From: Sphaerolaimus hirsutus
Taxonomy: Eukaryota; Nematoda; Chromadorea; Monhysterida; Sphaerolaimidae
Assembly: GCA_964036195.1 (NCBI GenBank)
Contig: OZ038454.1
Coordinates: 2,728,001 to 2,792,000, forward strand
DNA: 64,000 nt
Direction of reading: 5' to 3'
Below, piece by piece: positions 5,730 to 45,706 of this stretch (positions are counted from its first letter, which is position 1; the number at the start of each line of letters is the position of its first letter). The notes under the pieces are model-generated. The model was not told the DNA's origin, searched no databases, and saw only the letters and a program-made list of their open reading frames with translations. A program made the translations under genes and the position numbers.

Positions 5730-6100
5730 CAGACAAAAAAAAGAAAATTTGCCACTTTGATAACATGGATCATTTTACATTACTTTTTACACTTTTATAA
5801 CATTAGCTATTTTACAGGGTGCGTGGCTCCAGGAACAAGCATTCACAAAATGATTGATTGTAGGCGTAGCCGAATACAGGCATTTTCCCAATCACACATT
5901 TGCTCAGTAATTTGCGTAGATACATTTTCCCGACAACTTGTAAACCAAAATTTTGTAAACTCGAAAATCAGCTTCGTGCGCATTTGAGTTTACCGGAATG
6001 ATGTGGCCGTCAACTGCTGTTGATAGGCATTAAACATAACTCATTTTGGTAAAGTCAAATGAGTTCAATACTGATTTGCGAATTTTGGTTGAAAACTGGT

Positions 6101-6300
6101 GGCAGTCCCAAGCCCTGTAAAGTGTAAAGTAAAGTGTCAAATGTAAAGTAAAATGCAAAGTCAAATGTCAAATGTAAAGTAAAGTGTCAAATGTCATGTA
6201 AAGTTCAGTAATCAAATCTTTTGTTTTGATTGACACTTTACTTTGTATTTGACTGTACATTTGACACTTTACTTAACACTTTACAGGGCTTGGGACTGCC
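6101..6300. repeat. B-family palindrome
   Basis: GGCAGTCCCAAGCCCTGTAA...TTACAGGGCTTGGGACTGCC, clear 200-bp palindrome. Confidence 0.82.
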
Positions 6301-11700: not shown

Positions 11701-14700
11701 GGGTGTTGCGACTAGGCGAATTATCCCCCAAAATCGCTTAGGTGTCTATCCATGTGGAGCAATTTTTGAGCGATTTTTCTGATTTTTGAATCTACCCAAC
11801 CCACGGAGGGTCAAAATTCAAGATTACCCCTGCCAACGCACCAACAGTAACTGCATACGCCACTAGGACATCCACGGTGTAGTGGAGTCTACTGATGACC
11901 AGACAAAATATTCCAATGTAGCAACACCCGACTATCAATTTTACCGGGCCTGAAAAGTGTATTCGTTTGGACTATATAAATAGCTCCTGCGAGTCGTGAA
12001 ATTTATTAAAATATTATACCATGGATCGAAACGAGAATTCCTCAAGCAAAATGTTGTGGCAAAATATAACCACAACCACAAGGGACCCGCACCCTGTAGT
12101 GTAAAGTCATGTGTTAAATGTCATGTAAAATGGCAATCAAAATAAAACAGAGAAAAATGATTACTGCACTTTTGAAATTTCGCCTGACAAATGACAAATT
12201 TGTATGACACTTTACATGACATTTGTCACTTTACTTTATACATTACAGGCTGCGACAATGCCACCAATGTAAATAATACAAACATATACGGTAAATACGA
12301 TCAGAACACCTTCAAGACACCCCCCTCCAAAAAACCTCAACAACTCCCCCCCCCCCCCAACCAACCCCCCAGCACCCCACCCCCATTGTGCCGTAGCCGG
12401 CGCCCATGCCGCCTGCGGGCAGGTAGCAGCGCACGGTCAACGTGCACAGGGTGAACACCATCGTGTGGCCCGAGAACAGCATGTCGCCGCACAGGTCCCC
12501 GCTAGTGGTCGGGGTCAGGCCTGGGGGTGTGAGGGGGTATTGTAGGGCGCTGGGGTAATTGTAACGAGCTGAGGCGAGTTCCGCACCCTGTAAAATGTCA
12601 CGTACAATTTTTTTTGCAAAGTGTAAAAAGTCTTGAAAATGGCCTGTAAAATGTGAAATGACCGGTAAAGGAAAAAAAGAACATTTTACATTTTACACTG
12701 CATGTTACATGACTTTTAACACTTTGCATGACATTTGACATTTCTCAGGATATTATGTAGTCACTTTTAAAGTTTTTTTTACATTTGACTTTTAAAGTTT
12801 TTTATAACATTTGAGATTTGACAGGGCATGTTACAGGGTCTGGGATTGGCCTCAGAGGTTAGGATGTGAATTTCACAGTATTGGTAAATATGAAAATTTT
12901 CCAGTAATTGATCTTATCGTTTCGTACCCTCTCTAAAGCCAATTTAGCATTTACATCTATTCAAGGCGATAAAAAACACCACACAAACAATCATTCAAAA
13001 TACTAACCCAAGGTTCCAAATTTGAAAATAAATCTTCTCATCACAGTGTAATAATTTGGATTCGCATCAATGGGTGCACAATATAAGCTAGCATTTTTAT
13101 AAGCCACTGGCAATTGAGTACTGAGAAGGCACATTGCCTGGAAAATAAAAAAAATAAATACTTGATTAAAAAGTGAATTTGTCAAATTTTGGGTTTATTC
13201 AACAAGTGAATCAGTGACAAGGGGTGGCTAGTGAAGTTGTTGTTATTAATATTTTTCAGGATTTCAGAGAGATTAAATTTTTCCTGGTGATTTTTTTTGT
13301 TTAAAAAAATATAAGAAGTGTTTATTTAATTATATATTTTCCGTCTTTTCTTAGAGAGATTCAGTCACCTATATATTTCCTTTTTTAGGAATTTTTTGAG
13401 ATTTTATCTGTTATCTGATTATTTTATCTTTTCTTGTCACTTGTCCACTTGTGGAACAGCCACTTGATGAAACTTGAAAAAGTTGACCATAAAAACGATA
13501 AAAGCTCACTCTCAATGAATATGCTGCTGCAGCTATTACTAAAACCCGTCGAATTACTACCATTCGATACCTGAGAAAAAAAGACAATGAAATAAAGTGC
13601 ACACGCAAAGTCATAAATACATTCACATGGTATGCAAAATCATAGCTCTGAAGTGAAGTGATGTGAACTTGAGGTCCACTTATTAGAATATTTACTTGTA
13701 TTGCCCTATAAAACTGGTTCCAATTCCGCAAGTAGATAGGTGAAAAGAAAAGTGCTAAGTAATAAGTCAAGTTGTAAGCGGTAAGCAAGAAAAGTTTGAA
13801 GTGATGAATTGTGATGTGATATTTGATTGAATTACTACAATATTTGTATAGTAATTCAATCAAATACTACAAAGTGATGAAAGTGTACTTGCCAAACTTA
13901 CCGCTTAAAACAAAACTCAACACGTCTGAATTTCTACATATTGTCACTTATCCAATTGCGGAATTCCCTAGACCCCTATTCAGTTCATCAAAGGCTCATA
14001 TTGTCGCACTACTTCAAAAAACGTTCCAACATTTCAACTCTAAAATCCGACTCCTTAAAGTGCCAAAAAGTGCCCTCCACCCAAAAAAGTTCCCAAAAAC
14101 GCACTTATGCAGCGCAGCGACCAATAAAATAATAGCGCCGGCCACAGCTACGAGTGTATCCCCCACTGGTCTCGCCCACGATTGTTCCTCTATCAAAGAG
14201 TGCAGCAAATCGGGCAGGGGCGTTCTGCAAATGGAGGGGGGGGGTAATTTCTTTTTTCTTTTTCCTTGGGGGGGGGTTTATCAAGTGCTGAAAGTGGTGG
14301 TGATGCCCTACGCACACTAGTTGACAAGGACACCAAATGTCAACTGGTTCCCATCCCAATTCAAAGCTTGCCGACAAGCTTGCCATATGAAAATTTCAGA
14401 GAAATATAATGAGAAGGGCCACTGGATGGAAAATCACTCGCAGAGAATGGCGCCGCGTACACTGGTTTACTTGCAGTGCACGCAAAACATGGTTAACTAA
14501 TAAATCAGCTTTGAACGGGCTTTTCAGGGCCGATCCCAAGGGGGGCGGGGGGGCTGCAGCCCACCCCCCCCCCTCCCGGGGTGAGACCTAAAAATCGTCG
14601 GAAATGCAACTTATTCTATACATTTTTCATCGTATGTGCAAAAATTTTGCGCGCAAGCGCGCATTCACCTCCTCAAACGTATAATTATCAGTGGGTGGGT

Positions 14701-23948: not shown

Positions 23949-24937
23949 TTGGGCCATTGCCAAGTAAAAGAAGAACCAGCTTCACGCCTAGTAGATAAAC
24001 GTTTTGACAACTCAATGAGTAGATTTTTTTAAAATTAATGTGCTCACCCTGAAAAGCTTTTTATCTGGTGGCATGATGAAGTTTTGTCGGGCACAGCGCA
24101 CTGCCCGACAAATCTGTCGGGCAAAATGCATTTCCCCCCATGCACACGGTCATATGCTGAATAAACATACTTTTTCATACTTATAATAGAAGGCAAGATA
24201 GGGAAATCATTATCAATTTCTTATGCCATAAAACACGAATGAACCTAAATATTTAAATAGGTAGATAGAAACGGTAAACGCGCACAAACTGAGACAGTGT
24301 TGCTAATATAAAATGTATGGATATGAGTGAAGTAATTTTGACTGATCATTATTCATTAACGATGGCAAACGCTGTGGAGAAACGTGTTTAAATTTTTAAG
24401 TGTCTCTTTCACAATATTGAAATGAGTTTTTGAATTTTGAAATTTTCTAAATGGTTTTCAAATTTCGAATATCATTATCAAATTTCTGAATTTCATTGGG
24501 ATATGTTTTTGCGAAATTTACCATTAATGCCAATAGTTTTTGAATTTCGAAAATTTTGGGCTAATTAATGGAAATTAATCTTTGGATTCGATCGTGAAGT
24601 GTTTTATTCTTCGCTTTGGTGAAACAATGAACTTTCTACCTATTCTATTTGTCATCGTCACTGATAATTCTTTTTGCCGACATAAGCATTTTTTTTCTTT
24701 TTTTCCTCATAACTAGGTAAAATAATATTTAACACAACTATGAATACGAGAGTACGGCAAGTTCTTCAAACACAAAAAGGTAAAAATAGAAACTGGTAAT
24801 TTTCATGTTTAAGTATAAAATATTCAACACGTTATTGTCCAATGGATCTTGCCTATTTTACATTTTTTTTCTAAATCACTGGAGCCACTTTTAGACGACA
24901 AAAAAGCCATAGCAGAACAGAACCAAATATTTCACAT

Positions 24938-33862: not shown

Positions 33863-34038
33863 TCACCTGACCTTATAAAGCCTAAAAGTGTGATTTTCGA
33901 AAAGCAATTCGAAATACTCTCCAAACTCTGGCGAGTCATCCAAATGTCTAATTTGATCGCAAAATCTAGGCGTGTGTTCTCTGCGCAAATCCGTGTCCAA
34001 TAAAGTTGCAGCGAGAGCGGTCGCTGCGTCCTCACCCC
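33863..34038 (-). CDS. DPY19 exon 17 (stop codon)
   Basis: Acceptor AATAATCCCAG. Encodes [29 protein letters not shown] and TGA, matching the family's C-terminal CxxL...F..VFQNSVYKV. A GT right after LYK could be a donor, but the in-frame stop two codons later fits a natural end. Confidence 0.85.
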
Positions 34039-37000
34039 CTGGGATTATTTGGTTTTATTTGTTGTTTTTAAAATTATTTTTACCATAAACCATCGAATAA
34101 ATCCCCGAGGGAGTTAAAGGTGCTAATTTTTGATAGTCTGATGTTGCGAGGGGTTATTCTTTGAAAAACGTTTTTCTACACAACTCCACGAGAGAAACCC
34201 CCCCCCCCAAAAAAAAAGTCAATCCAAGGCTAATTGAACCTGGGGGCGGTCCCAAGCCCTACAACGTGTAAAGTAAACTGTCAAATGTAAGGTCAAATGC
34301 AAAGTCAAATGTCAATTGTCATGCAAAGTGTCAAATGTAAAGTTAAGTGCCAAATGTAAAATCAAATGTAAGGTAAAGTGTCAATTGTGTATCCAAATCT
34401 TTTTTTCGTATCCAAATGTTTTGTATCCAAATCTTATTTTTGACATACGCTTTGAATACAAAAAAAAAGATTTGGATACACAATTGACACTTTACTTTAC
34501 ATTTGACACTTTACTGGGCTTGAGACCGCCCCCAGACACACCACTAATCATTTCTCTTGTCACTTGCCAATTTGCAAAACTGGCCCCAACAATTCATTCC
34601 ACAAGCAAGCAAAAATACAAGAGCCTTCGGACTTACAAATGGATAGTCCCAAAAAGTCCAAAAATAAATGGACTCGATGGACCTTTGTGGACGTATTCTG
34701 GCTATTCAGTGAGTACATTGGTACGTGTCTTGTCCCAATCCACTCGCTAAATGTCCGGAATACGTCTACAAAAGTAGGACATTTATTTTTGCCACATATA
34801 TGCACATTGCTAAATCCAAATTCTCTTGTACACTGCTCCCAACCCCCCCCCCCCAAGTGGGCGGAGTCACTAGTTCACCTTGGTGTGCGGGCAGCAGGGC
34901 GTACTCGGGCACATGTCCGTTGTGCAAATCTACTAGATCGGGGGTGCTGCAGCCGCTAGAACGCGACAGACAGATCGAGTCCTGCCATGGGAGGATTTTT
35001 TTTTGCATTTTTTGACAAATTTTTTTTTTGTGGGTTTTTTAATGATAGTGAAAATGTTGAAGTTATAGCAGAAATGACACTCATATAATTTATGCAGGTA
35101 TCTAAAATGATCCACGTACTGCAAATTTTGCCACGGAAACATTTCCTATCCTATTTGAAAGACAAATAATTTTTACCTAACCATAAATTACTTTCACTAT
35201 GGCACCATAATTTCACACAACTTTTCATAATTTCGCTCATTTTCCCTTCTCAAAATAAAGTTTATTCAACAAAACAATGTTCCTTTCTGTGCAAAGCCCT
35301 TACGGATAAATATTCCTCCCAGAAAATGCTACAAAAAAACTCAAAATATTGGGATACATACCTCCAAAATGATATAATCGACTCTTTCCTGTGCCAATAT
35401 CTGGTGCACTTTTTGCGGCGGCGCCCTGGCATAAATCTGATAAAGTCGGGCGGTTCGCTCGCGCAGCCACTTGTCCTCGAAGTGAGGGTGGTTGGCGATG
35501 TGCCTGCATCGATAAATGGGTCATTTTGATAAAATAAGTTTTATTTAATTTAAAACTAGAAAATCTCACTTAAAATCTGTAAAATCGTGGCAAAAATATA
35601 AGTAAACATTTTTTTATACTTCTTTTATCTTTTTTAAATATATTCTCCGATATTTTTAGTGTGAAAACTAATGCGATACCACCATAAAACTCTACAACCT
35701 AATGCGGAACCTGGTATTTACCAGTTCCGCAAATTGAGAGTAAAATGGCAAGTACGAAGAGAACGAAGTGAATTGAGACGAAAATTGGAAAAAGCGAAGT
35801 GAAATGGCAAGTAAATTAGCAAAAGCGAAGTGAGAAAAATAAAAACCGATTTCCCTTCGTTTTTGCCAATTTCCTTCTCACTTCTCATTTCACTTGGCAT
35901 TTGCCATTTTACTTCTCACTTGTCAATTTGCGGAACTGGCCCCGGTTTTATCGACAACTTTCCATCCACGTCTTTCTATACCTGGAAGTGCAGGCCTTGA
36001 CGGAGGCCATGAGCTGCATGCTGCCCGCCAGCGACGCGTCCGGCGCCGTCTGCGCCCGGATCCACTGCATCAACTCCACCGTGTCCGGGTCCCAGAACTC
36101 CTGCGACCAAATGGCACGTGACCAAGTGGGGATTGCCCTACACACACTAGTTTTCACCGTGACCGATGTGAAAACTGAAATGGCCACATGGCCACATCCA
36201 GCCTACTCTTTTTGTATGCTATATATGTTTTAGTTTTAAAATTTTCAAAGCTTAACTTTCTTTTTTTTTAATTCCAATTTAAGTTAAATGAAATCATTCA
36301 ACTGTGTTCATTAATTTGCATTTGAAAAAATTCCAGTTTTCACACGAAGTCACGGTGAAAACTAGTGTGTGTAGGCACATTAGTACTGATAGTGCTGATT
36401 ATACATACTGATAGTGCTGATTATACATTTTGTACCACATTTTACACGTTACATAACATTTTACAGGGTGCGGTATGCGATATGATAAAGTCGTGGAATA
36501 AATCCTATGCTAAATTATTCCATAGTGAAAAAAACGTTTCAAAGAAAATTTTATGATATTTTGTTCAGTATTCAGACGAAATATGGTACATTTGACTGCA
36601 AAGTATGCAGTAGGTAGACAACAACCCAAAAATGCCGAGCTAAGTTTTTAAGAGACGCCATATACTTTGTCAAATAAAACCAAATTTCCAGAAATTCACA
36701 AAACCCGCACACACCTTCAAATCTCGCATCCACTCAACGTAAGTGGGATAAAATTGTGCAGAGGCGATTCCAAATGCCATCAATGTGACGCAAACCGACG
36801 CCAACACTCCCCTGGGGTGAAATTATTTTTTAAATTGTTATGAAATTTTAGGTGGAAAGTCATGTTATAAGTTATACTCTAGGAAACAAAGTAGTGAACA
36901 GTTACAATTAAACTTGTCACTCATAAGTTCACATGTCACTGGCTTACCACATAACGTAGGTTATTCACTTATCCACTTGGGAAACGGGAATAAAAAACCC

Positions 37001-40000
37001 GACACAATAATCCGCATAAAACGGATCTGGATGCCCGAAAAAATATCGGGATGGCGACACTCTCAAACCCTGTAAAATGTGAAATGTCATGCAGAGTGTC
37101 AAAAGTCATGTAAAACATCAAGGCAAAATGACATTTTTTATTTTATATATTTCTGGGGCCAGTACAAGTTGACAAGTGCTTTACTTTTGACTGTTGACTA
37201 GGGTTCAAACGGGATTGACTTTTCGGGATCAGGATTCACTTTTTGAGATTTCGGGATCGGGATTGGGGTTTCGGGATCGGGATCGGGATTGGTATTTTGA
37301 GATTTCGGGATCGGGATCGGGATTGGCAGGGATTGGGGTCACGGGATCGGGATCGGGATTGGCATTTTTTCGGGATCCGGATTGGGGTCTGGGGATAGGG
37401 ATTTCGTCACTGTTCTGGCATTCACAGTTGTTCATAAAGGTCTCAAAACACTGTTGGATGCCAGAAAAGTGACATAAAATGGACGCTGGGGTTTGCGTTT
37501 ACATTTTTGCACGCAAAAATGTCATTTTTTTCACTTTTTATAATTTCCACTATTTTTTCCGGGATCGGGATCCCGGACTTGGGAGATTCTCGGGATCGGG
37601 ATCGGGATTTGAAAGTTTTCGGGATCGGGATCGCGATCGGGATTGGTATTTTTGGATTTCGGGATCGGGATCGGGATTGGGGTTTCGGGATCGGGATCGG
37701 GACTGCTAAATCCCGGAATTTCACGGGATCCGGGATCGGGATCGGGATCCCGTTTGAACCCTACTGTTGACTTGACTATGCTCTTGACTTTCAACGTGAC
37801 TCTAGAATTCGTCACTTGCGGAACCGGTAAGTGACAAAGTCAAGAGTCAAGTTCAAAGTTAAGAGTCAAGGCAAGAGTCAAGAGTGAAGCACTTGTCAAC
37901 TTGCGGGACTGGCGCCTGGACGTTTCTGATTTACCAGATCACTTTATTGTCAAGGATTTACTTGCTTTTTACATGACTTTAACACTTCACATAACACTTG
38001 ACACAGTACAGTAAGTGGCACCTGATGAAATTTCTTACCTGGTGCTGGTTTGGCTGCTTTTGCTTCGAGTCGCCTCATTACCCGAGTCCGTATCCGAATC
38101 CGACTGCGAGTCCGCGTCAATGTGTTTTCTGGATGGCAACTTGGCAAGGAGCCAAGACCACATGCGCTGGTCGGCTACGCACACGCTCGCCAGCACGCAC
38201 ATGCACGGGTACCTGGCAGATTAAATAAATATAAAATAATGTGGTGTGTGGTCTGATTTAGATGGCTACAATTTAAGGCTACGAGAATATCTAAGGATAA
38301 AGCTACATTTTAGGCGATAAAATAGCACACAAAAAGCATGAAAATGATGCCGAAAGCAGATAATTTCCAATGAAAATATATTCACAATTAGAGTACCTTA
38401 TATACCGCAAGCACAAAACTGCGCCGCATTCACAATCAAATAAATTTTACAAAAACACAATACTCACCATAAATACTTGAACCTGAGTGCCATCATAGCC
38501 AGGAACCCATACAGAGTAGAACATATAACCAACAGAGTCAAATTGGGTCTTCTACAACACAAATAATCCAAATTTGGCTCGGCCGGCGGTGGGCCGTCCG
38601 CCGCGCTGCGGTACGTTGCAGCTGGCACTTCCAACGTAGCCGCAACGTTTTTGTCGGTAACGTTGGCGCTACGTTTCGGCGACGTTGCCAGCGACAGACC
38701 GCACCTTTATAAAGGAGTGATAGGGTTTATTTGTTTGGGAGGAGTTTCGGGAAATTCGAATGTTTTGAAGGCAATGTAAAATAGCTTGCAACGGCTTGCA
38801 AATACGAAATTGCGAGATAAAATTTGAGTGGCTTATGTAAATATTTTCAAGTCAAGAAAATAGAACAGGGTTTCTTGATTCAATCTGTTTACCTAAATAC
38901 ATCAGATACATCAATTCGACATTATTTTATTTTATATTCTATGTACTTTTTTTTTTTTTATTAGACGAAATTTGTTTTATTTACGAGAAGAAAATATAAA
39001 AATATATCTCATTTATATCATTTTCTACTTAATCTGCATTTTTCAGAGAGATTTAATTAAGATTTCTTGAAAGATTTCATCTGTAATTATAGGTATTTGA
39101 TTTCTCTCTAAAAATCACCCATTCCCAACTTTAATTCCACAAAAAAACAAAAACAACCCACCACTGCAAAATGGTGTCTCTAAACAGGAAAAACAGCACA
39201 GTGCACACCAAGGCCGCGTGCAGCGGGAACACCAATCTCCACGAAGCTCTATAGAAAAAGTCCGTGTCCAAATAACTGAACGCTCCGTGGCACAAATACA
39301 GCCGAGACTCGAAATCGGTCGGGGGCGTGGAGAAGCCCAATTTGGCCATGAGGAACTTGTAGATGTGCGCGTCCGCTTCCAGGGGGCAAGTTTAATTCGC
39401 CCGACGGGTTTTTGTCGGGCAGCCGCCGGGTTTTTATGGTATTAACTCGAACAATAACCCTATTGAATACCCCACTGAACTGTACAGAAGGAACAGAAAT
39501 TTTCGGCTTTCGGATCAAAGATGTTGTCGGGTATCGGGTTCGGGTCGGGTCTAATACGGATTTTTATCTAACCTATTTTGAATTCATTTTGTCTACTTAT
39601 AACCTATTTTTAGCGATTTTGTTCCCTTTCTCCCTTCTGTACCTTGAAAAGCTGACATAATTTGCCAGAAAAAAAAACTATAAAAATGAAAAACAACTCG
39701 TTATTCGAGGTAATACGGTATCAATTACAAGCTACCGTAATCAGATTTAGTCGGCAGCGCGTACTCCGGTTACTTTACACCTTGCACGTGTGGTTCCCGC
39801 TGGAAGTGTGCCAACAATGGTTAACGCGTGCGAGTTTCATAAAAAGATGACAAAATTGATTGTTGTTATAATCTTATTCATTAACATATTCACATCGATG
39901 AATTTTTCACCTTTTTATGGAAATCGCATGATTTAATAATCATTGGCACGCTTCCAACACGAGACATAAATCAGTGCGAGGGCAGAGTATCATGTCCGCC

Positions 40001-43000
40001 GAGTATACTCTCATTCACAACAAATCGGGCTGCCCGAAAAAACGTTTCGGGTGAATAAAATTTGGCACCAGGTTGAGCAGGCGCTTGACGCCCCAGTTGC
40101 AAGCCAGAGTGGACACCAAGCACAGCAGGAACTGGCCGAACACTCTGCGAGGAATGGTTGGCATTTTGCCAATTCAGAATGAATGAATCGACTCCACTCG
40201 AATGAATTTCTACCCTGCACCCAAAAAGACGCAAGCCAACCTGAAGGCACCCTCCACCATGCCATCGTTGCTGAGCGTGGCATTCTGGCACAGCCACAGC
40301 GTGAACATGGCGGCCGGGGCGAAGCTCAGCACCTGCGACACGATGCTAGTTGCCCGACACGTTTTTGTCGGGCAGCCCGATTGATTGTATGCATTCAATT
40401 TTTTTGTTGTTTTTGGGTTGGCTGCCAAGGTACAAATTAGAGGCCACTCCGGGGAGTGTAAAGTGTCAAACGAACGGTAAAAAATTGAAAATTGACATTT
40501 TACACAGCTTTTGGCACTGTTGGCATAACTGAAACCAGAACCGCACCGAACAGGGCAGCCACAAAAAATCGGGTTGCCCGACAGAAGAAAAAAACAAAAT
40601 CGGGCAAATTCAATGCCGCACCAGGGAGCCGAGTAACATGGGCTGCAAAAACTGGCAAACGGCGGCGATGAGCACGCTTAGCACGACGGTGAACAGCAAC
40701 CGGCCGCACTTGCACAGGGGCGCCACCCGCAACACGCCCAGCACGAAGATGCCCCCGCCTGGGAGGTTTTTTTATTTTGAGTGGATTAAAATTGAATTTA
40801 ATTGACTTTCTTGTTTTAGTCTGATTGCATTTTGAAGGTGGGGCTTTGGAATTTATTTAGGGGTGAGTTTTTCACCTCGACTTATTTTCTCGGTGCAAAC
40901 GTTCAGAATTACCGAGTACGCATGTAAGGCAACAACACTTTGATGCTTAACCCGCAGAGAAATGAAGCAAAGTGCGAAAACGCTTTTTACTCTGGCGCTA
41001 GCGCCAACGCCAGCGCCATGGCGCTGTCACTCCCAATGGCTAAATTAATGAACACGGTTGAATGATTTTATTTTAATTGGAATTTAAATTAATGAAAGTT
41101 AAATTTTAAATTTTTTCAAACTAAAACACACATAGCATACAAAAAGAGTATGCTGGATGTCGCCATGTGGCCATTTCAGTTTTCACACGAAGTCACGGTG
41201 AAAACTAGTGTGCGTAGGCACAATACCGCTATAAACCATTGACACTAACACAAATTGTTCCACCAAACTTTTCACCGTTTGAATATTAATTTCAAAATTT
41301 CCAACACTTGATATGTTGCATTTCCAACTTAAAAAAGACAACAAAAAAGACTCACACTGTATAAAAAGGACGAACTGGGAGAACTGCCAGCAAAGTGCAA
41401 ATAGTGTGCAAAACAACAAGTTAAAAAAGTTCAGTAAGCACCGGGTAACTGCACGGCGCTGCACCGGTTCCAGCAGTAAGTGTATGCACAGCATCTGCAT
41501 AGAAAAAGCCCAAATTTTCCTTGTTTAGGTATAAACAGGGGTCTCCAATGGGGTGACCCCTCACAAATCTGCCAGCTACCGTATTTCCTCGAAATACCCC
41601 CCCCCCCTCGTTTGACCCCCCCCCCTCTCGAGACCACTATGAAACAATCACCCCCCCCTCGAAATACCCCCCCCCCAAATTGAGTGTAAAGAGAACGTAC
41701 ATCACAAATATGGCAGTTTGTGTTCTGCGTAGTGCAGAACACACGTTAAAACGATGTCGGAGTCACGTTAGAACAGTGTACATACCATCTACATACTAAT
41801 ATTAGTCTACAGAACCTTAAAAATGGCGGTTTTTGTTGCATTTTTCGACGTCTGCGTACGTTTCAGACGACAATTTCGTACTTGGTTTTCAAAAATTTTC
41901 TTGTGAAATAATAACCCCCCCCCCCTCGAAATACCCCCCCCTCGTTTGACCCCCCCCCCCTCTCGGGACCACTATGAAACAATCACCCCCGGGGGGTATT
42001 TCGAGGAAATACGGTATCTATCCCGGAGGCAAATTTTTGAGAAATTTTGACACTTTTTTGTCCATTTTCAACTTAAACGAACTAGTTCATGCGCTTTTTG
42101 CCTATGTTCACCTGTTTTTGTCAATATATATATTGATGTGCTTTTACGTATACCCATTTCTAACTGTATCTCCCCTGTTTTTAGCAACTTTTTCCTATTT
42201 TCTCTGTTCTACAACTTGAAAGAGCCTATTAATCGAACCCCCGCGAACCCCCAATATTTTTTTTCCCGAAAAAAACCCCCAAAATTCACCTGTGCCCCCA
42301 AAAAAGGCATAGCGAAAGCCTCCCTCAAATTGACAGTGAAAAAGACTCTGCTCGCATCTTCACCTCCAGCGGCCATGAACAAAACGCACAAAAGTCCGGC
42401 CAGCCAAGAGCTGCTGGCGTGCCAGCTCAACGCAAACAGACACATCACGTAGAAACCCTGTGAAGTGTGAAGGGGTGTGAAGAGTCGTGAAGTGCCTGCA
42501 CTGCGGATTGGTTGAGTGGCGCATTTTTATACTTGAGGACAGAGGGGGTAGTGCCGCACCCTGTAAAGTGTGAAGTGTCAAATGTCATGTAGAATGTCAA
42601 TATAATTTAAAAGAAAAGATTTTATAATTGAACTTTTGACATTTTGTATGATATTTGACAAGTTTGTAGGACACTTGACATTTTACTTTACACATTACAC
42701 GGTTTCAATGGTAAAATTTTTTTACATTCTGAAACTTGTAATTCGCAAATACAACTAAATCTGTAAAATCAAATGATATCCACGTAAATACGCTTTAGTT
42801 ACCTGAAGTTGGAAAATCGATTGAACATAGAAAAGTATGGGTGCCATGGACGGTTGCAAACGAGTATATAAACCAGCTAAAACGACCTGCGCATGTGAAT
42901 AAAAAGGGTAATTTTGAAGGATGAAAAGGAGTTCGGTTTAGAGAGCAACTGGGATTGACTTTTCGGGATCGGGATCACGTTGGATTTTGTATTTTCGGAA

Positions 43001-45401
43001 TCAGGATCGGAATTGGGGTAAGGGGATAGGAAACGCGATTTGAAAATTTTCAGGGTCGGAACTGGGATTGGGTATTTTCTGACTGGGTATTTTCAGATAA
43101 CTGACAGACTACTAGGTATTTTCGGTATAACTGGGTATTTTCGGTATAACTGGGTATTTTCAGTATAACTGGGTATTTTCAGATTTCGGGATCGGGATTG
43201 GGGCTTCGGGTTAGGGACCGCTGAATCCCGGAAATTATCGGGATTCGAAATCAGGATCCCGTTTGAACCCTAGATAGGGGAACCATGCGGGGGTGCACTG
43301 ATACGCACATCTGCCTGTTACGCACATTTGCCCGTTTTTTCACTTGACACTTTCAAAGTGATTTTCAGATATACCGTATTACCTCGAAATACCCCCAGGG
43401 GGTTTATTATTTCGCCAGCAAAATTTGAGGGGGGATAATTCGAGGGGGGGTTTATTCGAGGGGGGGTCTATTATTTCGCCAGAAATTTTCGGAAATTCCC
43501 CATACTCGGACGTAGAAAAATCTAACAATTACATATATGTATATGTCTTTATAGGTATATATAACTGTATATACACATAAACCCTTCCCTAACGTCACTC
43601 AATCTTCAGTTTTAACGTGTGTTCTGCATTCTACAGATCACAAACTGCGGTATTTGTCATGTACGTTCTCTTTACACTCAATGTTAGGGGGGTATTTCGA
43701 GGGGGGGGGGTTTATTATTTCCTCAGCCGAATTTTAGGGGGGGTATTTCGAGGGGGGGTTAATTCAAGGGGGGGATAATTCGAGGTAATACGGTAAGTGA
43801 AGTGAAAAAAGTTCACTAATGTCATTGCGCAGCTTTTTTTCACTTTACTCATATCTGAAAATCACTTGAAAAAGTGTCAAGTGAAAAAAACGGGCAAATG
43901 TGCGTAACGGGCAGATGTGCGTATCAGGCCTGCCCCGAACCATACCAAGTCGTTACAGTAAGCACCATTTTGCAAACGGAATTCCCAACCCGCCAACCTC
44001 CTGATACAAATTGAATCTTTGCAGCACATTTATCGTGCGCGTGTGTTCCGTCGCGTTGTCAACTGTCAATGCAAAAAGTCCCCTCTCGAAGGTTTGCGCT
44101 GCGAGGATTTCCTTGAAATAGGAATAATACAGGCCGCACTCGGTGCGGAGGCTGATTTCTCGTTCCACCTGAAAAAGAGTGATTTTTAGGTTGATTTTGG
44201 AGGTTAAATATCCGGTGCCCGGTCCGCTAGTGGATAGGTGACAAAAAATGGGCCGGGAAAAATATTTGTCATTTGTGAAAGTGAATTTTTAAATGAAAAT
44301 ATTTGTCACATTCATTTATGTACTTGTCAATTGACTTGGAGTCATCATAACCATATTTACCTTGTAAAATGAAAAATGACATGCAAAGTGTCACAAGTAA
44401 AATGACCTGTAAAATGTCGTTTGTAACTTTTTACTGGACGTTTGACATTTTCCAGGACTTTTGACACTTTGCGCGACATTTGACAGAATAACAGAATTTG
44501 ATAACAGTACTTGACCTGACTTATCACTAACCACTTCACCTGTCATTTTATCACATGCAGAGAACGGGGAACCCCAACTCAGGAGTTTTTCACAACCTAG
44601 GTAAATACCCCCCTCACAACCCCCCCCCCCGAACCTGCTGTATATTGGAGAACCACAGGTGATTCTCGTGCAGTTGCGCCTGCAGGAGGGCGTAGGCGCC
44701 GCCCGACGCGCACAGGGCACCCAGACCGCACAGCGAGCACAGCACCGTGAACCACAACCCCCCGCTGTAGGGCGAGGGGCCGTCTGAGGGGGGGGGGTTG
44801 TGATTGTGGTTGCCCAATGGCGCTGCTAAACATATTTACTGGGTGTGAACTGGTTTACATGTCAATTCAGGGTTTAGTTGACTGGTCGTAGATGGACAAT
44901 TTTTGAGTGTTGAGGGGTGTATATTGCCATGTGCATTTTAACATGGTGCGGCAACCCGCCAACTAAAATCTGAATGGAAACCAATGGATTCAGTTGACAG
45001 CTGATATCATTAGCCCTACACACCAAATGTCAACTGGTTCCGTTCCCAATTCAAAGCTTGCGTTTGACAGTCGTTCGTCAGCTCGTCAGCAAGCTTTGAA
45101 TCGGGATCGGCACCAGTTGACATTTGGTGTCGATGTCAACTAGCGTGTGCGAGGCCAATGTCAACTAGTGTAGGGCCATACTCAACAAATTGGATAAAAT
45201 CTTTCACGACGCGAGAAAAATCCAATACAAAAAGATAAAACATTCTTCAAAAAGACCACCCAACAAACCATCACACTTCTCCACTTTACCATTGGTCGCG
45301 GGCGCGCCATTTTTGATCGTTTCAGCGCCATTACTGGCGCCATTTTTCTTGGCCCCTTTCCTCCTTCTAGGCCCCTCGCTGATTTGAGATTGCTGTCGCA
45401 T
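33863..45401 (-). CDS. DPY19-family protein C-mannosyltransferase (17 spliced exons)
   Basis: DPY19 enzymes are ER multi-pass membrane proteins that attach mannose from dolichol-phosphate-mannose to Trp in WxxW/WxxC motifs of secreted proteins. Seventeen exons give a 2394-base frame (about 797 residues plus stop), within or slightly above family length. Family signatures appear in order: basic cytosolic N-terminus, first helix, [13 protein letters not shown] (luminal acidic loop), [28 protein letters not shown], the multi-helix core, [17 protein letters not shown]-like [40 protein letters not shown] and the terminal RFCDQ...FELLF. A Ser/Ala-rich insertion before the late helices (exon 11) and SDSDTDSGN (exon 12) add length. 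Introns hold many MITEs. Which vertebrate paralogue is closest cannot be told. Confidence 0.95.
34242..34533. repeat. B-family palindrome
   Basis: GGGGGCGGTCCCAAGCCCTA...GGGCTTGAGACCGCCCCC. The centre is AAGATTTGGATACACAATTG. Confidence 0.8.
34879..34981 (-). CDS. DPY19 exon 16
   Basis: Acceptor CCCATGGCAG, donor CACCAAG|GTGAAC. Encodes [19 protein letters not shown], matching ESWCVRRSKPGCSMPEIWD. Confidence 0.9.
35362..35503 (-). CDS. DPY19 exon 15
   Basis: Acceptor CGATGCAG, donor TTGGAG|GTATGT. Encodes [18 protein letters not shown] and VDYIILE, matching RPIVNHPHYEDAGLRART and NYYILE. Confidence 0.93.
35721..35942. repeat. B-related palindrome, CCAGTTCCGCAA ends
   Basis: CCAGTTCCGCAAATTGAGAG...CAATTTGCGGAACTGGCC with AAGTGAGAAGTAAAATGGC words; DPY19 intron 14. 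Confidence 0.75.
35982..36100 (-). CDS. DPY19 exon 14
   Basis: Acceptor TTGGTCGCAG, donor ACTTCCAG|GTATAG. Contains [20 protein letters not shown], matching the family's ELIEWIKYSTKPDAVFAG. Confidence 0.93.
36134..36377. mobile_element. D-family element, copy 1 (DPY19 intron 13)
   Basis: GCCCTACACACACTAGTTTTC...GAAAACTAGTGTGTGTAGGC ends with TTTTCACCGTGAC arms. Confidence 0.82.
36715..36811 (-). CDS. DPY19 exon 13
   Basis: Acceptor CACCCCAG, donor TTGAAG|GTGTGT. The helix [19 protein letters not shown] is followed by the start of the luminal C-terminal domain. Confidence 0.85.
37155..37915. repeat. B-related palindrome split by a hAT-like element
   Basis: GGCCAGTACAAGTTGACAAG...CTTGTCAACTTGCGGGACTG, interrupted by 37199-37763; DPY19 intron 12. 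Confidence 0.75.
37199..37763. mobile_element. hAT-like TAGGGTTCAAAC element, GGGATC core
   Basis: TAGGGTTCAAACGGG...CCCGTTTGAACCCTA ends, perfect 8-bp duplication CTGTTGAC. The body is many GGGATC hexamers. It is inserted within element 37155-37915. Confidence 0.85.
38039..38212 (-). CDS. DPY19 exon 12
   Basis: Acceptor ATCTGCCAG, donor [29 protein letters not shown] matches TPHMCVMASLICSRQLFGW. It is followed by an Asp/Ser-rich insertion, [14 protein letters not shown]. Confidence 0.9.
38468..38704 (-). CDS. DPY19 exon 11
   Basis: Acceptor CTTTATAAAG, donor TTTATG|GTGAGT, phase 2 to 2. The first half is a polar Ala/Thr-rich stretch that the family core lacks. The second half is [16 protein letters not shown] and [10 protein letters not shown], matching the late membrane helices. 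Confidence 0.78.
39162..39379 (-). CDS. DPY19 exon 10 (unusual 5' border)
   Basis: Encodes [24 protein letters not shown] and a long helix, then RDTILQW. The ADAHI motif of the family is intact only if the exon starts at GAAGCG. The intron end there is CCCTG, not AG. The nearest AG (GGAAG|CGG) would shift the frame. Donor CAGTG|GTGGGT, phase 2. Confidence 0.8.
39384..40067. mobile_element. S1 inverted-repeat element forming DPY19 intron 9
   Basis: Ends GGGCAAGTTTAATTCGCCCG and, inverted, TGCCAAATTTTATTCACCCG, each followed by a TCGGGCAGCC block. CCAGG is repeated at 39379-39383 and 40068-40072. A separate element (39760-40006) is nested inside. Confidence 0.7.
39760..40006. mobile_element. 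O-type element, copy 2 (nested in S1)
   Basis: About 250 bases, nearly identical to 30426-30674, with inverted GTACTCCG...GAGTATACTC ends. Confidence 0.6.
40069..40144 (-). CDS. DPY19 exon 9
   Basis: Acceptor CCTCGCAG, 1+75 bases. Encodes [17 protein letters not shown] and VKRLLNL, matching the family's FWLFGTVILKYLTSK. The donor at CTG|GTGCCA opens the S1 element intron. Confidence 0.85.
40241..40332 (-). CDS. DPY19 exon 8
   Basis: Begins at TCGCAG|GTGCTGAGC in phase 0. With exon 7 it reads [19 protein letters not shown], matching the family's SSLVIIWGILAM. Donor CTTCAG|GTTGGC, phase 2. Confidence 0.88.
40334..40617. mobile_element. S2 inverted-repeat element forming DPY19 intron 7
   Basis: Ends carry imperfect inverted repeats around TTGCCCGAC...TGTCGGGC. 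GCACC lies on both sides (40329-40333 and 40618-40622), a 5-bp direct repeat of exon sequence. The whole intron is the element plus one repeat copy. The donor GT comes from the repeat, and the acceptor AG is the element's last A plus the first G of the repeat (minus strand). Confidence 0.7.
40622..40758 (-). CDS. DPY19 exon 7
   Basis: Phase 1 in and 0 out. Membrane segments [15 protein letters not shown] and [15 protein letters not shown] end with LLGSL. The downstream intron is the S2 element (40334-40617). Confidence 0.88.
41040..41222. mobile_element. D-family element, left end missing
   Basis: CACGAAGTCACGGTGAAAAC and CTAGTGTGCGTAGGCAC at the right; body matches 36134-36377. Confidence 0.7.
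41356..41494 (-). CDS. DPY19 exon 6
   Basis: Acceptor TTTCTATGCAG, donor ACAGT|GTGAGT, phase 0 in and 1 out. Contains [15 protein letters not shown], matching the family's LPWQFAQFVLLTQ. Confidence 0.92.
41536..42060. mobile_element. GATAGATAGCTG family copy split by an A element
   Basis: CAGGGGTCTCCAATGGGG start. The AGCTATCTATCCC word is split after AGCTA by the A element 41579-42014. Sister copies keep the word whole. Confidence 0.7.
41579..42014. mobile_element. A-family element inserted in a GATAGATAGCTG copy
   Basis: CCGTATTTCCTCGAAATACC...TTTCGAGGAAATACGG. The split word AGCTA|TCTATCCC shows a duplicated TA target. Confidence 0.88.
42290..42457 (-). CDS. DPY19 exon 5
   Basis: 56 codons, phase 0. 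A hydrophobic helix is followed by [17 protein letters not shown], matching the family motif HGExTRVxWTPPLRESF. Acceptor CACTTCACAG, donor GCACAG|GTGAAT. Confidence 0.92.
42549..42700. repeat. B-family palindrome
   Basis: GTGCCGCACCCTGTAAAGTG at the left, ACTTTACACATTACACGG at the right; lies in DPY19 intron 4. Confidence 0.65.
42803..42886 (-). CDS. DPY19 exon 4
   Basis: A 28-codon exon, acceptor ACATGCGCAG, donor CTTCAG|GTAACT, phase 0. Begins [16 protein letters not shown], matching the family's PEVILASWYR...P region. Confidence 0.88.
42953..43273. mobile_element. TAGGGTTCAAAC-type element, degenerate
   Basis: GGGATTGACTTTTCGGGATC at the left and GTTTGAACCCTA at the right, with repeated CTGGGTATTTTC units inside. 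Confidence 0.6.
43278..43943. mobile_element. Palindrome P, split by an A element
   Basis: GTGCACTGATACGCACATCT at the left is mirrored by AGATGTGCGTATCAGGCCTG at the right; the arms continue through AACGGGCAAATGTGCG and AAGTGTCAAGTGAAAAAA. The A element 43374-43793 sits off-centre in the left arm. Confidence 0.75.
43374..43793. mobile_element. A-family element nested in palindrome P
   Basis: CCGTATTACCTCGAAATACC...TTCGAGGTAATACGG between TA. Confidence 0.85.
43998..44168 (-). CDS. DPY19 exon 3, luminal active-site loop
   Basis: Acceptor TCTTTTTCAG, donor CAGGAG|GTTGGC, phase 0 on both sides, 57 codons. Contains [20 protein letters not shown] and [11 protein letters not shown], the strongest DPY19 signature in the window. 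Confidence 0.95.
44635..44783 (-). CDS. DPY19 exon 2, first transmembrane helix
   Basis: Acceptor after a C-rich tract (CCCCCTCAG), donor ATACAGCAG|GTTCGG, phase 1 in and 0 out. Encodes [20 protein letters not shown] and the luminal stretch [14 protein letters not shown], matching the family's ...LFENDRHFSHLS segment. Confidence 0.88.
45012..45156. mobile_element. C-family element in DPY19 intron 1
   Basis: AGCCCTACACACCAAATGTC...CAACTAGCGTGTGCGAGGCC, GTTCCGTTCCCAATTCAAAGC core. Confidence 0.7.
45290..45401 (-). CDS. DPY19 exon 1 (start codon)
   Basis: ATG at 45401-45399 opens [19 protein letters not shown], a basic Asn/Gly-rich cytosolic tail. The donor is CCAATG|GTAAAG, phase 1, which matches exon 2. 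A 5'-UTR acceptor (TTAATTGCAG) lies about 17 bases upstream of the ATG, so at least one non-coding exon precedes it. Confidence 0.85.
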
Positions 45402-45416
45402 TTCAGTTGAATTTCA

Positions 45417-45476
45417 CCTGCAATTAAATTTAATTTGCCCGATTTTTCTAATTTTGGTCGGGCAGATCGGGTAGTG
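45417..45476. mobile_element. S-type element end at the 5'-UTR acceptor of DPY19
   Basis: TTTAATTTGCCCG, then GGTCGGGCAGATCGGG, begins at the CTGC that is the acceptor of the 5'-UTR intron, in the same arrangement as S1 and S2. The opposite end was not found. Related TCGGGC pairs occur at 24086-24130 and 21154-21190. Confidence 0.5.
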
Positions 45477-45706
45477 ATTCGTGGATTAAAGTGATGCTTT
45501 TTAAGTGTCAGATTTTTTGCGGTTACTTGAGTCCTAGGATTAGTTCCAACTGTGATTTACGAAAATGCACCACTCGGTCAGATTTTGAAAGACAACGTAT
45601 AAAAAAATAATAATAATGGCATCACACACGTGATGTCAACTAAAATCTTAAGGAAAACCAGTTGACAGCCGTTCACACTCAAGAGTCCAATGTCAGACAA
45701 CTGAGA

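Follow-up and report, generated by a model that had tools for sequence, protein, structure and literature searches.

How an intron is born, and by what route a raw insertion turns into one that is spliced well, has long been asked. Is intron 7 of the DPY19 gene of this nematode a record of such an event? A preliminary description of the window (the whole stretch of 64,000 nucleotides analysed here, C6:2728001-2792000) had read that intron as an introner, i.e., as a transposon-like element that had entered an exon and was flanked by a 5-bp exon duplication, GCACC. The introner reading is supported, intron 7 being a copy of a dispersed element, here called S. The details of where the element begins and ends have had to be shifted.

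Two S copies at intron borders in DPY19

The gene specifies a DPY19L3-like C-mannosyltransferase. Pfam PF10034 is matched at 5.2e-22 and the C. elegans dpy-19 structure (PDB 7zlg) at 8.7e-66, and a protein search gave 63 homologues, the top match at 46% and the best named one, Plectus sambesii, at 43%; besides other nematodes they include urchins, molluscs and vertebrates that score similarly. The exon range in Table 1, which runs to the C-terminus HTFRLYKV, comes from tblastn with these 63 homologues, six of which have matches among those listed; a protein search with a single exon gave no match.

Taking out 40333-40621 does restore the frame LLGSL-VLSF, as had been claimed, and the join MLLGSL|VLSF is ungapped in 61 of the 63 homologues, the remaining two (P0051 and P0052) being gapped or misaligned around it. 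GCACC is present, exactly, at both ends, and so are the inverted repeats built on TTGCCCGAC/GTCGGGC, the longest pair of which is 26 nt and 85% complementary (40363-40388 with 40561-40586). Is GCACC, or GGTGC as the gene reads it, then the target duplication? Here the description stood only in part, the GGTGC/GCACC match being exact, but probably one register off from the target copy of the family. Aligned with other S members the intron 7 element seems to begin at TGC directly after CCTGG, so that GGTGC would be target GG plus TGC, the latter being at once the start of the element and the next exon bases. From this alignment the target copies seem to be CCTGG on the donor side and GCAGG on the acceptor side. 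GGTGC as target copy is possible, yet out of register with the S family, and the assignment of the donor GT to one target copy and of the acceptor AG to element plus the other copy is probably one register out.

A 5-bp repeat over a splice junction is, by itself, nothing special. The 11 ordinary introns of DPY19 show repeats of 1-5 bp, and two of them (I3 and I12) reach the full five. The inverted-repeat cores close to both ends of intron 7 are distinctive, because none of those 11 has GCCCGA or TCGGGC in the 45 nt next to either end. On both strands of the window TCGGGC occurs 29 times vs 15.3 expected, so the bare motif proves little; chance repetition was rejected as an explanation of S on the strength of the longer profile of the ends and of the counts over the genome given below.

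It had been asked whether S coincides with introns elsewhere. It does so two introns further on, where intron 9 has S ends at both borders, and where the join LNL|EADAHI is ungapped in the DPY19 homologues (n = 63) except P0063. Both ends of intron 7, both of intron 9 and a fifth, for which no partner was found, align with one another at 38.1 to 47.3 bits in a profile built from those same five ends, the next best in the window reaching 19.6.

Table 1. Positions in the window of the DPY19 gene, its two S-bordered introns and further S ends
Feature	Positions	Strand	Basis or score
DPY19 gene, exon-match range	33869..44835	-	tblastn, Pfam, PDB
Intron 7 (289 nt), GTGCGG...TCGCAG; S copy end to end	40333..40621	-	
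S element body in intron 7 (284 bp), family register	40337..40620	-	
Intron 7 apparent target copy CCTGG, donor side; final G is first intron base	40621..40625	-	
Intron 7 apparent target copy GCAGG, acceptor side (CAG|G acceptor)	40332..40336	-	
GCACC copy 1 of the preliminary description	40329..40333	+	
GCACC copy 2 of the preliminary description	40618..40622	+	
S end, intron 7 donor side	40561..40625	-	39.2 bits
S end, intron 7 acceptor side	40332..40388	+	47.3 bits
Intron 9 (689 nt), GTGCCA...CCCCTG (GT..TG); second S copy in DPY19	39380..40068	-	
Intron 9 target copy CCTGG, donor side	40068..40072	-	
Intron 9 target copy CCTGG, acceptor side; unchanged, without AG	39379..39383	-	
S end, intron 9 donor side	40017..40072	-	46.5 bits
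S end, intron 9 acceptor side	39379..39435	+	42.8 bits
S end at presumed acceptor (TTAATTGCAG|GTGAAATTC, minus strand) ahead of presumed first coding exon	45417..45477	+	38.1 bits; exon assignment presumed
Weaker S-like end, no gene linked there	24096..24142	-	19.6 bits

A dispersed family with a 5-bp target duplication

Across the 348,482,957 bases and 762 contigs searched, the exact S core pattern is matched 19 times vs 0 for a reversed control, and a longer pattern with up to three mismatches 173 times vs 2; viral contigs gave 0 matches to the S pattern. S is a dispersed inverted-repeat family. Outside the window 77 loci (L022-L024 and L027-L100) were examined, four of them near-duplicates of others, and the profile over S loci yields 40 end pairs. 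The alignment of S ends runs inwards from the target copy. An exact CCAGG or CCTGG stands just before 23 of 97 ends (those of at least 25 bits, with four duplicate loci dropped), the expectation at equal base frequencies being 0.19. For 33 of the 40 pairs (those dropped are two duplicates, four pairs whose left end lies within the first 40 bases, and one alternative pairing) agreement between the left and right 5-mers peaks at offsets 0 and -1, with 2.27 of 5 positions vs 1.1-1.6 of 5 at offsets of five or more in either direction; identical 5-mers number three at offset 0, two each at -1, -2 and -3, and one at +1. Most pairs are imperfect, and the 5-mers are identical in five of the 40 (L049, L050, L076, L095 and intron 9), with identical target copies additionally at L017 and, once extended, at L078. 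S has a target site duplication of fixed length, 5 bp, with the consensus CCWGG, and the terminal inverted repeats expected of a DNA transposon or MITE. MITEs are small non-autonomous inverted-repeat DNA transposons that have a target duplication and many copies. S is like them in size, inverted repeats, target duplication and copy number, and differs in standing exactly at intron borders. Not every copy is an intron, as no coding flanks are visible at L022, L024 and L029. One locus (L017:1842-2915) carries an element that is complete and about 1.07 kb long, with inverted repeats of 157 bp (90% alike), target copy CCTGG and S-related ends, which from its sequence is possibly a larger relative of S.

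Does the element enter its target either way round? Usable here are 38 of the 97 ends, those whose target copy has A or T in the middle and finishes in GG, and the counts of middle target base with first element base are T/T 17, T/G 6, A/T 3 and A/G 12 (Fisher p 0.0023; an element's two ends are not independent observations). Ends starting with T favour CCTGG and those starting with G favour CCAGG, a rule broken by nine of the 38 and by the related element at L017. If the cut is at CCWG|G and one polarity is preferred, the borders predicted for a fresh insertion are GT..TG or GG..AG, not GT..AG.

Joined proteins and predicted borders

What lies on either side of S in other genes? Among the 77 loci outside the window there is a strong family match at the element for L043 (one end only), L046 and L047, and a weak one for L066 and L078. 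In L046, an SLC4 transporter, the join WIIDPMENPIYTIPL|AFLPAILGSVLLFMDQQIT belongs to a peptide matching Pfam PF00955 at 5.8e-27 (residues 2-74) and is ungapped against the two PDB structures among those listed. In L047, P5C synthase (P5CS), the join RAAAASGMP-G-LMSLYEQ is ungapped against PDB 7f5t (4e-17), the join peptide matches TIGR01092 at 4.2e-18, and five exons read as one protein give 6.6e-62 and 8.9e-59. This gene, on C6, covers profile positions 1-708 of 715; positions 94-111, absent among the matches listed, are the short exon following S and are seen in the 7f5t alignment. Its S-interrupted part is single copy in the assembly, and the only other P5CS copy among the 20 matches listed, profile positions 341-708 on contig C536, is probably an unmerged haplotype. 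For phosphomannomutase (PMM; 1.2e-37 over the join) the acceptor is an S end and the donor an ordinary GTGTGT, with no recognisable S end on the donor side. Thus S does coincide with introns in further genes: the coding sequence of SLC4 and of P5CS is restored on its removal, and PMM has its acceptor at an S end.

Elsewhere the matches are slighter. L066 borders an MSP-like domain, in a match that falls below the cut-off (E 0.00025) and begins right after the join, and L078 is HMG-like (E 0.026, also below the cut-off); Pfam was asked with 27 peptides from 23 loci, and the remaining 18 of the 23 had either no match or only ones to unrelated families at chance level (best E 0.077). A search with the L050 peptide gave four candidates, none significant, while against solved structures L067 and L095 had no match and L078 one doubtful one. 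Open frames alone support L023, L050, L067, L068, L080, L091 and L095. The joins throughout were chosen by inspecting open frames rather than by a blinded count, and many flanks were judged by eye from translations; unclear flanks (L027, L042, L057, L060, L061, L072, L073, L076 and others) were left uncounted. L067 and L068, about 20 kb apart on C3, are a recent duplication of part of a gene including its S intron.

Likeness of sequence that reaches both splice borders, one hallmark of introners, is found for intron 7, intron 9, L046 and L047, and another, insertion in an exon with coding sequence restored on removal, for DPY19 twice, SLC4 and P5CS. The ungapped conserved proteins obtained on joining the flanks, together with the PMM acceptor at an S end, argue that S copies became introns.

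Cut at CCWG|G, ten loci have the following predicted borders: GT..AG for intron 7 and L046; GT..TG for intron 9, L047, L066, L067 and L095; GG..AG for L050, L080 and L091. (L023, with neither a GT nor an AG end when cut in the family register, is excluded from this set, and L068 is the duplicate of L067.) Predicted borders other than GT-AG, accompanied by direct and inverted repeats, are accordingly those of eight of the ten loci, plus L078, which is predicted to be GG..AG at the family cut. The copies flanking L046 are CCTGG and CCAGG, and comparison with those of intron 7 suggests that the CAG|G acceptors of both may be later changes from CCTGG.

Need the cell use such borders at all? S copies could be introners of which the non-canonical ones are spliced at a nearby GT-AG (or GC-AG), with a few residues gained or lost. 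Published introners can add codons, according to the text of PMC9860276 available to us. A scan was made for GT-AG pairs only. It took in every GT donor in the interval that begins 36 nt ahead of the cut and closes at the next in-frame stop, and every AG acceptor between the last in-frame stop and a point 36 nt past the cut. This gave stop-free frame-keeping pairs that add or remove residues at five of the eight non-canonical loci (intron 9, L067, L095, L050 and L080). Within the scanned range there is none at L066, L091 or, which counts against that explanation, P5CS. Intron 9 has three, of -8, +7 and -15 aa, all of them against homologue conservation at the join, for the deletions of 8 or 15 residues include the conserved EADAHIYK and the +7 option falls where no homologue alignment shows an insertion. 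We regard splicing at such nearby sites as rather unlikely.

A probable route from insertion to intron

On the evidence of the joins and target copies it is likely that S is a non-autonomous DNA transposon which inserts in exons and is spliced at CCWG|G, non-canonical at birth and later GT-AG. How might this work? A family with long inverted repeats and the 5-bp target duplication CCWGG would insert into exons as well as other DNA, for the most part in one polarity, with its T-end beside CCTGG and its G-end beside CCAGG. Splicing of the transcript at CCWG|G in both target copies would bring back the reading frame as it was before. One orientation would have the donor G|GTG, with its G from the target and its TG from the element, and the acceptor TG; the opposite one would have the acceptor CAG|G and the donor GG, so that a new insertion would have one non-canonical end. 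Folding of the inverted repeats may bring the ends together and so help removal, and a point change at the weak end could then yield GT-AG, which is the change proposed for DPY19 intron 7 and SLC4. The predicted junctions are 40069/39379 and 40622/40332 in DPY19 and C6:8293935/8294348 in P5CS.

The calculated pairing is strong. Between the first and last 65 nt, duplex energies are -44.8 to -70.6 kcal/mol for 11 S introns, and -13.7 to -36.8 kcal/mol for the 11 ordinary DPY19 introns at the same length, I8 being just 96 nt long so that its two 65-nt stretches overlap. In whole folds of intron 7, L046, L066, L080 and L091 the outermost long-range pair is within two bases of the donor and five of the acceptor. 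By these calculations the inverted repeats of S can pair the intron ends, and by analogy with what has been proposed for Amoebophrya such end folding may help removal.

The one-target-copy join and the pairing ends would suit precise excision from DNA in somatic cells, leaving one target copy and making splicing unneeded, as well as they suit splicing. However, unexcised copies stand in the assembly, and the GT-AG borders of intron 7 and SLC4 make sense for splicing only; we think excision very improbable. Equally improbable is it that the S-interrupted genes are dead alleles or assembly errors. An extra partial P5CS copy, that on C536, is kept in the assembly, and one P5CS exon match on C6 crosses a TAA. 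Against this, for most of their length DPY19 and P5CS can be matched to their families one exon after another; between the two S ends of intron 9 the identity is 78% over 46 nt, which makes the insertion an old one, provided that its ends were identical at the start; and the two exon differences seen between L067 and L068 are both silent. The idea that the introns are old and that S inserted in them later, near splice sites by chance, has in its favour the S copies in DNA with no visible coding flanks and L054, which seems intronic and some tens of bp from its donor (the exon was recognised by eye), and it is slighter still: it is rejected for intron 7, intron 9, SLC4 and P5CS because both S ends match the borders, in the same register and beside target copies, and no S core is near the ends of the 11 ordinary DPY19 introns.

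If S copies are exon insertions spliced at their own target copies, one genome holds the source element, the target rule, unmodified introns (intron 9 and P5CS, GT..TG) and apparently corrected ones (intron 7 and SLC4, GT..AG). The proposition that the cut at CCWG|G is set by the element's own target duplication, with GT..TG or GG..AG borders first, together with end pairing, and GT-AG afterwards by one or two changes, all birth steps thus being present in one genome, is in our judgement evenly poised. It has the merit of exact junctions that ordinary RNA-seq could confirm or reject, and RNA data on S introns that lack standard splice signals would show how a new intron is born.

How does S compare with known systems? 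Transposon-made introns are known from 175 of 3,325 genomes (Gozashti et al. 2022, PMC9860276), a paper in whose text, as available to us, the word nematode is absent. In the parts of it available, the DNA-transposon-type introners of Symbiodinium microadriaticum and others are like S in their inverted repeats, short target duplication and exon insertion, and in that one splice site is co-opted from a target copy and mRNA length is mostly kept. They differ in that their target copies are of 4 bp and that they carry a 3′ splice site, where S has CCWGG and a preferred polarity, and neither orientation of S is predicted to give GT-AG at birth. The non-canonical introners of the dinoflagellate Amoebophrya (PMC7789003), as far as the accessible text goes, share with S direct repeats (3-5 nt) that span the borders, pairing inverted repeats and non-GT-AG ends. 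Those introns are RNA-supported and are described there as lacking both a clear motif at their borders and a repeat specific to a family, whereas S is one family with a CCWG|G cut, alongside normal GT-AG introns, and is known here from genome sequence alone. The chordate Fritillaria borealis (quoted in the available part of PMC7789003 and cited in that of PMC9169325) is, like the host of S, an animal with introns beyond GT-AG; its are mostly AG-A(N), those of S being predicted as GT..TG and GG..AG. For Caenorhabditis, according to the accessible portion of PMC9169325, a study of 168 gained introns found no sequence from which they had come. The open-licence papers listed in literature searches, those since 2022 on nematode introners being judged by title, include no report of the S family, of CCWGG target duplications (among the 12 listed of 313) or of nematode introners, and none on nematode non-canonical introns with inverted repeats.

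The window has other repeats and frames. Repeats based on CCGTATTTCCTCGAAATACCCCCC are at 41560-42020, 43400-43800 and elsewhere, and also in several of the loci examined elsewhere. Inverted repeats of TGTAAAGTGTCA / TGACACTTTACA are at 6100-6290, 42440-42720 and 44350-44470, and also within intron 7 (40456-40505). In other DPY19 introns there are a further inverted-repeat element at 35700-35950, with ends near CCAGTTCCGCAAATTGACAAGTGAGAAG, and, at 37200-37770, long arrays of GATCCC-type repeats whose frames resemble IPIPIPDP peptides. On the minus strand at 12315-12692 is a reading frame containing CGDMLFSGHT, which, going by this motif, resembles a sphingomyelin synthase.
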